Part shown: positions 17,383 to 59,928 of the stretch, one piece after another
Layout of the letters: each line of letters begins with the position of its first letter
Position numbering within the stretch: the first letter of the stretch is position 1
Assembly: GCA_003279445.1 (NCBI GenBank)
Contig: QCHT01000001.1
Coordinates: 62,001-126,000 of the forward strand
Source: Prochlorococcus sp. AG-402-G10
GTDB lineage: Bacteria > Cyanobacteriota > Cyanobacteriia > PCC-6307 > Cyanobiaceae
Direction of reading: 5' to 3'
Length of the DNA stretch: 64,000 bases
The notes under the pieces: generated by a model
Told to the model about the DNA's origin: nothing
The model's input: the letters and a program-made list of their open reading frames with translations, nothing else
The model's database searches: none
Made by a program: the position numbers and the translations under genes

Positions 17383-18515
17383 CCCTGCGTCAAGGGTTGC
17401 GAAGACTTGTTTTGGTTATCCCAAACTGGAACTGTGAAATAAAAACATGATCCTTTGCCTGGGTCTGAGACTACCCATATCTTCCCTCCGTGAACTTCTA
17501 CTATTCTCCTACATACTGATAATCCAATACCAAAACCCGATGCTTGGCTGGAAGTCTGAGGTAAACGAACACGGTCGAGGAAAATCCGTTGTTGTTCATC
17601 ATTAGGGATTCCTGGTCCTTTGTCACAAATACTTACTTGTACCCATTGATTAGTTCTATGCAGTATCCCTATCTCAACTGTGTCTCCTGACTTAGAAAAC
17701 TTGAGAGCATTTTCTATTAAGTTTAGTAATACTTGCCTCATTCTTCTCTGATCAGCAAAAACCTTCGGAAGGTCTGTTGGTATATCTGTGTTTATTCCAA
17801 TTCCTCGACTTAACCAATATTTCTCAAGTTCTAATATTACTTCAGCTGCAACGTGCGCTAAATTTGTTTTTTGAGGATTGCATAAAGCTTCCCATCTTGT
17901 TGTTCCAACTTCTAAAAGATCATTAGAAAGAGATTCAATTTCGTTTAACCGCCTTTTAATAACTTCTTGCAATCTACTTATATCAATTTGACCAAGTGAT
18001 TGACTTTGCACTGCTAATTTAGCCGCAGAAAGTGGTGTCCTCAATTCGTGAGCCACCATTCTCAATAGTCTTTCCTGTGATTCAATTTGATCTGCCAAGG
18101 TTTCATTCTCTTGCCTTAAGACAAGATTTTCATCTTCTAGAAGTAATTCTTTTCTTGTTCGAATGGTTTCAACATCACTGTGTCTAACATTTATACCTAA
18201 GCCACTGATTAGCACTTCTTCTTTCTCCCATCTTGGCAGCCAGTTCTGAATTTGCTCAAAGATACTTGTACCAGCAAAAATTTGTTTCGGCTTAGGATCA
18301 ATTTTTATTAGGGCTGGTATAGCAACTAGTTTATGAAGTTCTAGTAGCTCAGGTTGTTCTTTAGGATCTGAGAATTGAAGGCTTACATCAAAACCACAAT
18401 CTTCAGATTCTAAGAATCTAATGAGAGACCTTAAATCACCACGAGACAAATGATTTCTATTTGCTACTAGAAGAAGGTTTAGCTTTGTTTGCTCATTAGC
18501 TGTCTTCTTTTTCAC
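17379..18515 (-). CDS. sasA: Clock output sensor histidine kinase SasA
   Basis: SasA binds KaiC through an N-terminal KaiB-like thioredoxin fold (here about residues 12-98) and passes the clock signal by phosphorylating RpaA. The kinase core follows: a coiled linker at about 120-150, the H box [15 protein letters not shown] with His156, the N box [15 protein letters not shown], and G boxes [11 protein letters not shown] and [11 protein letters not shown]. Length 378 is normal. The start is GTG at 18515. It lies upstream of tRNA-Glu on the same strand. The kaiABC genes and rpaA are not in the window. Confidence 0.95.
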
Positions 18516-57649: not shown

Positions 57650-58171
57650 ATGAGCTGGCGCATTCCTTTTACAGTTTTAGCTCTTAGCACTGGGCTAGCT
57701 CTGTCCTCTTTCCCAGTAGTTGCTCAACCTTCTTCTTCCGAGGAGTACAGAGTCTTAGCGAAGTCGGATATTGGCCTAAGTCTTGATACCGTAGAGAAAT
57801 TTTTAAAAGATGGAGATGAGCTTTTTTTGAAAGGAAACTATTCTCAGGCTCGAAAGAAATATGACAAAGCAAGGGATATGTCAAAACTTCTATTGGGATT
57901 CTATGGGGATTTAAGTAATTCTTTTAAAGGCGTTGATGCTCTAATTCCGCGTGAGATGGATTCAAATAGCAGAAAAGTTATTGCTTTAATCTCAAAGTCA
58001 AATCTTAAGCTTGCTACCCTGTTTAGGAAGAATAATCAATCAGCATTAGCTGTTCCTTTGCTTGTTGAGGTTGTTAGGATATCTGGCCCTGCTAACAAAG
58101 AAGGTAATCAAGCGTATATGGAACTCGTTGAATTAGGTTTTGTTAACACCCCTTTTCGTGGCGGTAGGTAA
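57650..58171 (+). CDS. Secreted TPR-like hypothetical protein
   Basis: A 173-residue exported protein. Signal peptide about residues 1-25 (SWRIPFTVLALSTGLALSSFPVVAQP). The mature part is all-helical: SLDTVEKFLKDGDELFLKGNYSQARKKYDKARD looks like one or two TPR-type hairpins, followed by further helices and a Gly-rich tail (FRGGR). No enzyme motif is seen. I cannot name the family. It starts 34 nt after plsC, so co-transcription is possible. No Cys is present, so no disulfides or lipobox. Confidence 0.75.
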   Translation: MSWRIPFTVLALSTGLALSSFPVVAQPSSSEEYRVLAKSDIGLSLDTVEKFLKDGDELFLKGNYSQARKKYDKARDMSKLLLGFYGDLSNSFKGVDALIPREMDSNSRKVIALISKSNLKLATLFRKNNQSALAVPLLVEVVRISGPANKEGNQAYMELVELGFVNTPFRGGR

Positions 58172-58230
58172 AGACTTTAAATTAAAAATGAACTAGATAA
58201 ATTGATTTCTTAATTTCAATTAAATAGTTG

Positions 58231-58479
58231 ATGTTAAATTCCCTCCCTATGGTTGATTTTGAAGTATTAATCTTATCTATAAAGAAAGTCCTCCCAGATG
58301 CTCAGGTTAAAGTTGAGGATTTGAATGGAGGAGGTGATCATTTGCATGTTGATGTTGTTTCATCAGCATTCGCCGGACTCTCTAGAGTTCAACAACATCA
58401 AATGATTTATAAAGCTCTTCATCAAGAGCTTGCCAGTGAAGCTATTCACGCATTGGCCTTGAAAACTTCCACCCCTTAA
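58231..58479 (+). CDS. BolA/IbaG family protein
   Basis: A small BolA-fold protein (82 residues) that works with monothiol glutaredoxins in Fe-S and stress regulation. Motifs: [38 protein letters not shown], with the conserved His in HLHV, and the helix LALKTSTP at the end. The start ATG 58231 is preferred; a TTG at 58228 and ATG 58249 are alternatives. The grxD gene follows 12 nt later, a common bolA-grx pair. Confidence 0.9.
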
Positions 58480-58491
58480 TATTCTTTAAAT

Positions 58492-58815
58492 ATGGATTCT
58501 GAAACACGATCAAGAATTGATGAATTAATCAACTCTCATTCAATAATGGTCTTTATGAAAGGCACTAAACTGATGCCCCAATGCGGCTTCTCAAATAATG
58601 TTGTTCAGATATTGAATGCTCTTGGTATGAATTTTGACACCTTTGATGTCTTGTCCGATATGGAAGTCAGGCAGGCAATCAAAGAGTATTCAAATTGGCC
58701 TACTATCCCTCAGGTTTATTTAAAGGGTGAGTTCTTAGGAGGATCCGACATATTAGTTGAAATGTACAATTCTGGTGAATTGCGTGAAAAGCTTGAAATT
58801 GCCTTGGCTTCCTAG
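58492..58815 (+). CDS. grxD: Monothiol glutaredoxin (Grx4 type)
   Basis: CGFS-type glutaredoxin, binding a [2Fe-2S] cluster and pairing with BolA. The active motif is PQCGFSNNVVQIL, with TIPQVYLKGEFLGGSDIL (cis-Pro and GG loop). Length 107 is standard. It begins 12 nt after bolA on the same strand. The stop is 2 nt before the end of a convergent small gene. Role in iron signalling is inferred from the pair. Confidence 0.95.
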   Translation: MDSETRSRIDELINSHSIMVFMKGTKLMPQCGFSNNVVQILNALGMNFDTFDVLSDMEVRQAIKEYSNWPTIPQVYLKGEFLGGSDILVEMYNSGELREKLEIALAS

Positions 58816-58817
58816 GA

Positions 58818-59093
58818 CTATTCCCTCTGCTTTTGGAAATACAGATTATTGATATCCCCATCAGGACCAATGAAACTGGAGGGATCAAGAATCCATCGCT
58901 CTACCAGTTTTTCAAGTGTATCTAGGTCTTTTGGAGGAAGAGTTCTGCCCTTTCTTAGAGCATGCAAGTATCCATCAGCATAAATCTTTAATTCTGTTGG
59001 TGTATGAAAACTGTTAATAAGTTCCTGACATGCATCGCAAATTGACTGAAAATGTCTTATAGATGTTGGGTCCTGAAATGATTGTGATGTCAT
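58818..59093 (-). CDS. Small hypothetical protein, 91 aa
   Basis: A soluble, helical protein: SIRHFQSICDACQELINSF, then LKIYADGYLHALRKGRTLPPKDLDTLEKLVERWILDPSSF. Two Cys (CDAC) near the N terminus may bind a metal or form a disulfide. The YADGYLHALR-type helix is typical of a cyanobacterial conserved family that I cannot name securely. Convergent with grxD (2-nt gap) and divergent from the response-regulator gene across about 60 bp. Confidence 0.72.
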   Translation of the reverse strand: MTSQSFQDPTSIRHFQSICDACQELINSFHTPTELKIYADGYLHALRKGRTLPPKDLDTLEKLVERWILDPSSFIGPDGDINNLYFQKQRE

Positions 59094-59154
59094 TTTGCGA
59101 TAATCCTTAGGTATTTCTAACAGTTGGACACTTGATTAGTTATCTTAAAACAAC

Positions 59155-59928
59155 TTGATTTTGCCTGTGACATTAACTCCAGATCTACTTTCTGAAGAAC
59201 AAAGTTCGCAGCCTTCCCTAGCTGGTGGATCTCTGCACCCGACTGCTCAGAGTCCTTCAAGAATACTTGTTGTTGAACCTCATCCAACGTTGAGAACTGT
59301 TCTTGTTCAAAGGTTAAGGCAAGATGGTCACCTCGCTGCTGCTGTTGGATCTGTAATAGAAGCTATTGATCTGTGTCGCGACCAATCACCAGATCTCTTG
59401 GTAAGTGCTGAGCTGCTAGAGCAAAGCTCTGCTTTGAATTTGGGCCAGCAACTTGGATGTCCTGTTATGGTTCTTACTGCTAGAGCTGGAGTTGAAACTA
59501 TAGTTGGTTTACTTGATGATGGAGCAGATGATGTTTTGCGCAAACCTTTTGGGTTGGAAGAATTAGCTGCGCGTTGTCGGACTCTTCTTAAAAGAGGTCG
59601 AATAGGACTTCAAGAGCGAGTCACTGTTGGTCCGTTAGAGGTCCATCTGCTTCTTCGGCAGGTTACTTTGAGAGAGAAACCAGTCGAACTAAGTCCAAGG
59701 GAATTTGCTTTGTTATGTGCCTTGCTTATGCCTCCTGGGATGGTAAGAAGTAGGCACGAACTTCTAAGAATGGCCTGGCCCCCTTTTAGTGGTGGACCAA
59801 GATCAGTTGACACCCAAGTCTTAACCCTTAGAAGGAAGCTTGAACAAGCTGGCTTAGGTGATGGAGGTGGAATTACAACTGTTAGACAGCAGGGATATAG
59901 ATTTAGCCTTGATAGTCTTCCCTCCTAG
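59155..59928 (+). CDS. OmpR-like response regulator with a degenerate receiver
   Basis: A 257-residue transcription regulator: a 33-residue Ser/Pro/Thr-rich lead, a receiver domain at about 36-152, and a winged-helix OmpR-type DNA-binding domain at about 157-255 (LSPREFALLCALL, SVDTQVLTLRRKLEQ, VRQQGYRFSL). The receiver keeps the switch Thr108 and Lys130, but the acidic pocket is E41-P42 instead of D-D, and position 85, normally the phosphorylated Asp, is Ala. It is therefore unlikely to be phosphorylated normally. The first codon is TTG (59155); GTG 59167 is an alternative. It is not RpaA, which keeps its Asp. Confidence 0.88.
   Translation: MILPVTLTPDLLSEEQSSQPSLAGGSLHPTAQSPSRILVVEPHPTLRTVLVQRLRQDGHLAAAVGSVIEAIDLCRDQSPDLLVSAELLEQSSALNLGQQLGCPVMVLTARAGVETIVGLLDDGADDVLRKPFGLEELAARCRTLLKRGRIGLQERVTVGPLEVHLLLRQVTLREKPVELSPREFALLCALLMPPGMVRSRHELLRMAWPPFSGGPRSVDTQVLTLRRKLEQAGLGDGGGITTVRQQGYRFSLDSLPS

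Follow-up and report, generated by a model that had tools for sequence, protein, structure and literature searches.

The OmpR/PhoB-type response regulators NrrA of Anabaena (All4312) and Rre37 of Synechocystis (Sll1330) are induced through NtcA (PMC4295605; PMC3898017), and these relatives of the picocyanobacterial protein bind promoters of genes for glycogen and sugar catabolism (PMC4295605). A second group of described systems comprises the Asp-less or pseudo-receiver regulators ChxR, HP1043, RitR and FrzS (reviewed in PMC12632262, PMC4395418), from which phosphotransfer residues are missing while the fold is kept. Phosphorylation is likewise dispensable for NblR of the cyanobacterium Synechococcus elongatus and for GlnR of actinomycetes, a nitrogen-linked OmpR-type regulator that still has the Asp and dimerises by means of it (PMC12632262). 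Asp-less receivers and NrrA are each already known.

We analysed an atypical response regulator encoded in a 64,000-nucleotide stretch of DNA from Prochlorococcus sp. AG-402-G10, the whole of which we refer to as the window. Picocyanobacteria possess very few regulators; in the window genome (~90% complete) five receiver-domain proteins were found, this regulator among them, in agreement with the preliminary description of the locus. With NrrA/Rre37 it shares (i) the OmpR/PhoB architecture, (ii) a degenerate acidic pair and a similar recognition helix, (iii) a common clade and (iv) the gene neighbourhood in many genomes. Most of the relatives have retained the Asp (48 of 53) and an NtcA box (42 of 52), but both are missing from the picocyanobacterial form, which carries Thr instead of Ser at the T position of the receiver and has an alpha3-beta4 loop that is four residues shorter. 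HP1043 and RitR are found among its structural matches, and the absence of phosphotransfer residues from an intact fold is common to all four Asp-less systems, but the picocyanobacterial regulator arose separately from them, within the NrrA family. NblR and GlnR belong to other families. Our search of the open literature, outside which most subscription papers fell so that novelty is unproven, returned no report that ties NrrA/Rre37 to the picocyanobacterial regulator or describes the loss of Asp and NtcA control. The tie to NrrA/Rre37 gives an uncharacterised regulator a testable regulon, namely glycogen and sugar catabolism and carbon–nitrogen balance.

Domain architecture and the phospho-acceptor position

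The open reading frame at 59155–59928 of the plus strand matches Response_reg (PF00072, 43.9 bits) and Trans_reg_C (PF00486, 57.4 bits). The preliminary description had started the protein at the TTG at 59155, which is probably incorrect: close orthologues conserve a GTG at 59167, compared to which the TTG start adds four residues, and there is no in-frame ATG upstream of the receiver. Counted from the GTG, the residues formerly numbered E41, P42, A85, T108 and K130 become E37, P38, A81, T104 and K126. The gene is organized as follows:

59167..59928, plus strand: atypical OmpR/PhoB-type response regulator, NrrA/Rre37 orthologue, 253 aa from the conserved GTG
59260..59601, plus strand: receiver (pseudo-receiver) domain, residues 32–145, with the beta1-beta5/alpha1-alpha5 topology complete in the AlphaFold2 model
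59275..59280, plus strand: Glu37-Pro38 codons at the acidic-pair position, Pro being the unusual residue
59407..59409, plus strand: Ala81 codon (GCT) at the phospho-acceptor position
59617..59907, plus strand: winged-helix DNA-binding domain, residues 151–247

Pfam, the AlphaFold2 model and structural matches all identify both a receiver and a winged helix of OmpR/PhoB type. With a mean pLDDT of 86.3, the model shows both domains and their fold intact, including the whole winged helix, as had been read from the letters. Structures that match the model are OmpR-type regulators, including active-like KdpE, HP1043 (2hqr) and RitR (5u8m, 5vfa). The statement that no sensor kinase adjoins the gene also held, the sole HATPase domain found on the contig being located ~41 kb away at window positions 17424–17753.

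We aligned the window protein with 35 OmpR-type regulators of several phyla. A scan of genome contigs had yielded only two named cyanobacterial orthologues, from Nostoc and Pelatocladus, and otherwise other OmpR regulators, which served for this alignment. The column of Ala81 holds Asp in all 35 of them, and therefore the site is not misplaced. The column of Pro38 holds Asp in 33 of the 35, and that of Glu37 holds Glu in 23 and Asp in 12. Since the latter column is always Glu or Asp, nothing is unusual about Glu37; what the protein has really lost is the phospho-acceptor and the acidic residue at the second position. The preliminary description was thus exact in placing Ala at the phosphorylation position and right about both residues of the altered acidic pair; Pro is indeed unusual there, but Glu does not represent a loss, and part of the degeneration of the pair is shared throughout the NrrA/Rre37 family in cyanobacteria and is not lineage-specific.

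Within the family of the window genome (f1, Cyanobiaceae-type picocyanobacteria), position 81 is Ala at 40, Ser at 2 and Thr at 1 of 43 loci, and Asp at none. The Thr and Lys of the receiver, which had been noted as kept in the window protein, are invariant over the same loci. Asp-bearing orthologues, named beforehand together with an alignment showing a misplaced site as what would overturn the assignment, occur only among the more distant cyanobacterial proteins, and a misaligned phospho-site was rejected as the source of the pattern by the 35 Asp residues in the column and their absence throughout the family. With P38 and A81, the protein departs from the acidic pair and acceptor Asp of a canonical phospho-activated regulator, and Ala81 places it with the pseudo-receivers, whose acceptor position is without Asp. 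The analysis supports the earlier reading of an atypical OmpR/PhoB regulator that keeps its winged helix and is very probably independent of phosphorylation.

Orthology to NrrA/Rre37, gene order and the NtcA box

In a tree that also took in all other OmpR-type regulators of three genomes (G016, G039 and G046), the window protein and the best matches of other cyanobacterial families form one clade with 100/100 support, outside which all the other regulators fall. Bit scores of the profile search are bimodal, with orthologues at 235 or above and the next paralogue at 200 or below. On sequence evidence, the family regulator and its NrrA-like counterparts in the other families descend from one ancestor. 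Given an identity of just 34–41% to those orthologues and a long family branch (5.3), the function may have shifted.

Rre37 of Synechocystis carries Cys at positions 33, 66 and 116, and the primer used to clone it codes for M-N-P-V-Y-I (PMC4361706). The orthologue at locus L177 has Cys at precisely these three positions and the N-terminus V-S-P-V-Y-L; Cys66 is also present in most other orthologues. The published rre37 primer found no match in 388 genomes of the class or in 38 + 50 family genomes. The link to Rre37 of PCC 6803 and NrrA of PCC 7120 was drawn indirectly, from cysteine positions, NtcA boxes, the N-terminal residues and what has been published on the two proteins.

Gene order was compared over the following neighbours of the regulator:

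57650..58171, plus strand: conserved 173-aa protein without Pfam or NCBIfam match (working label TPR173, putative), conserved neighbourhood, located upstream of BolA in many cyanobacteria
58228..58479, plus strand: BolA-family protein, conserved neighbourhood
58492..58815, plus strand: Grx4-type monothiol glutaredoxin, conserved neighbourhood
58818..59093, minus strand: DUF6761 gene, divergent to the regulator
58917..59166, no strand assigned: 250 bases upstream of the regulator, without a GTAN8TAC NtcA box

The DUF6761 gene is the divergent neighbour of the regulator at all family loci and at 21 of 53 (~40%) more distant orthologous loci. The order BolA, Grx4, DUF6761 (divergent), regulator is common to Pelatocladus and other distant families and is also found at loci L038, L049, L050, L087, L196 and L199. 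The fully supported clade, the common gene order and the three Rre37 cysteine positions make a strong, if indirect, case that the window regulator is the orthologue of Anabaena All4312 and Synechocystis Sll1330. This orthology had been overlooked in the preliminary description, whose interpretation as an atypical regulator stands. Six near-complete genomes of other families (G051, G069, G128, G095, G056 and G038) hold no NrrA orthologue that scores above the paralogue range.

We scored an NtcA box as a perfect GTAN8TAC within 250 bases upstream of the gene. Outside the family, 42 of 52 orthologues have such a box, compared to ~7% for shuffled sequence (~0.07 expected per locus), whereas none of the 43 loci of the picocyanobacterial family has one within the same distance. 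A relaxed box with one mismatch is no commoner upstream of the family genes than in shuffled sequence. Perfect boxes were recovered at 7 of 10 family glnA loci, including that of the window genome, showing that the search works in picocyanobacterial genomes. By this measure, the upstream NtcA box has been lost in the whole picocyanobacterial family, and we therefore term the protein an orthologue by descent and not a nitrogen-regulated NrrA. A consensus scan of the short intergenic stretch detected no promoter resembling the sigma-70 type.

Selection, proposed function and alternative readings

The regulator gene is present in all near-complete family genomes examined, and the genomes without a strong match are incomplete. 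Between loci L006 and L009, the codons of the receiver differ by 49 synonymous and 3 replacement changes, and those of the DNA-binding domain by 53 synonymous and 0 replacement changes. Identity to the G016 orthologue is 88%, equal to that of three other regulators of these genomes, and the winged-helix domain (residues 151–247) has a mean column conservation of 0.96 over the 43 family loci. As judged by the codon changes, both domains of the regulator are under strong purifying selection. The joint loss of the phospho-site and the NtcA box leaves a signalling protein that is severed from both expected inputs and yet strongly selected.

Since both are lost, the switch must work in another way. 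We consider it likely that the protein is an NrrA/Rre37 orthologue functioning as a DNA-binding pseudo-receiver regulator that is uncoupled from the phosphorelay and from NtcA, with targets that would probably lie, by descent, in central carbon and nitrogen metabolism. Kinase-driven phosphorylation of an Asp would be unable to switch such a regulator, which would be a constitutively competent dimer on DNA, probably of the alpha4-beta5-alpha5 type. Its activity would depend on how much of the protein is present, or on a partner or ligand acting at the pseudo-receiver, and it would no longer be under direct control of NtcA. Based on the relatives, the targets would be genes of glycogen and sugar catabolism and of carbon–nitrogen balance. 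The recognition helix reads R-S-V-D-T-Q-V-L-T-L-R-R-K in the family and R-T-V-D-T-H-V-L-S-L-R-K-K in the other orthologues (differences T213S, H217Q, S220T and K223R), and this near identity suggests related, not necessarily identical, DNA sites. We found no published NrrA binding motif in the open-access literature and no binding, expression or regulon data for any picocyanobacterial member.

Two readings that deny the regulator its place or its function fare worst. The protein could in principle be NblR, the atypical regulator of phycobilisome degradation, or a divergent paralogue of RpaA, RpaB or PhoB. NblR is known to act in cyanobacteria without phosphorylation (PMC12632262), and the window protein weakly matches the NblR, PhoB and RpaB profiles. 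The scores stay far below the cut-offs, however (NblR profile NF045914 of NCBIfam, 73.8 bits against 300; RpaB, 92 against 330; PhoB, 115 against 296), the regulator lies in a different clade from every other OmpR regulator of the three genomes in the tree, and the gene order of its locus matches that of NrrA-like loci. We rejected this identification, which is very improbable, on the profile scores and the tree. Very improbable too is the reading of a former regulator in decay and about to disappear. The phospho-acceptor and the promoter site are gone, and the lineage is known for genome streamlining. Against this, the gene persists in every near-complete family genome examined, replacement changes between L006 and L009 are very rare (the three in the receiver) and conservation per column averages 96% in the DNA-binding domain over the family; a pseudogene or decay reading was rejected on this pattern of selection.

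The remaining alternatives concern the signal, for which the preliminary description had suggested redox or a metabolite as possibilities. A ligand- or partner-controlled pseudo-receiver, in which a metabolite or protein at the former active site or at the altered alpha3-beta4 region sets DNA binding, is a more specific form of the explanation we prefer and a tentative one. Such pseudo-receivers are documented (PMC12632262), and the strong purifying selection on a receiver without Asp as well as the family-specific deletion of four residues from the alpha3-beta4 loop are consistent with it; however, neither a ligand nor a partner nor a pocket emerged from the analysis, and a need for constitutive dimerisation equally explains the selection. 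A redox switch, in which invariant cysteines form a disulfide or become oxidised and control dimerisation as in RitR or HP1021-type regulators, appears unlikely. Redox-controlled atypical regulators are known (PMC12632262). All 43 family loci have Cys70 and Cys137, the latter in alpha5 on the face normally used for dimerisation, while Cys184 is present in 42 of 42 and Cys98 in 37 of 43; these four columns are mostly not Cys in orthologues outside the family, and genes for Grx4 and BolA are neighbours of the regulator. This adjacency is not a functional link, however, and Cys184, set in a hydrophobic stretch, may be a mere packing residue. The receiver Cys of column 93 that is discussed for OmpR regulators, present in 51 of 53 other orthologues, is lost in the picocyanobacterial family, and Rre37 of Synechocystis shows no thioredoxin interaction (PMC4361706). 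A broader proposal is that picocyanobacteria turned an ancient regulator of nitrogen starvation into a core one that obeys neither NtcA nor a kinase but another direct signal (e.g. thiol redox via the family cysteines, or a metabolite) and that times glycogen use; it is speculative and rather unlikely.

Lineage-specific changes and their order

Degeneracy of the second acidic residue is seen even in the wider NrrA family, where the pair is mostly E-G; in the picocyanobacterial family the pair is mostly E-P, and the alpha3-beta4 loop has lost four residues. As read from the compared loci, the lineage-specific changes are the loss of the Asp, the shorter alpha3-beta4 loop and the loss of the NtcA box. 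In a 16S tree, family f11 is sister to the picocyanobacterial family (87/97), and both f11 orthologues combine Ala at the phospho-site with a perfect NtcA box. The Asp was probably lost before these two families split, and the NtcA box and the four loop residues afterwards. The same tree places a divergent family member, G021 (joined fragments), outside the family and is therefore a rough guide to the order of events, which the intermediate state of f11 renders testable. In the simplest order, the loss of the Asp came first and that of NtcA control followed, although the Asp may have been lost twice independently. Ser at the phospho-site, with the NtcA box kept, was observed in the NrrA orthologue of three f23 genomes (L045, L198 and L200), apparently a separate loss of the Asp in an unrelated family.
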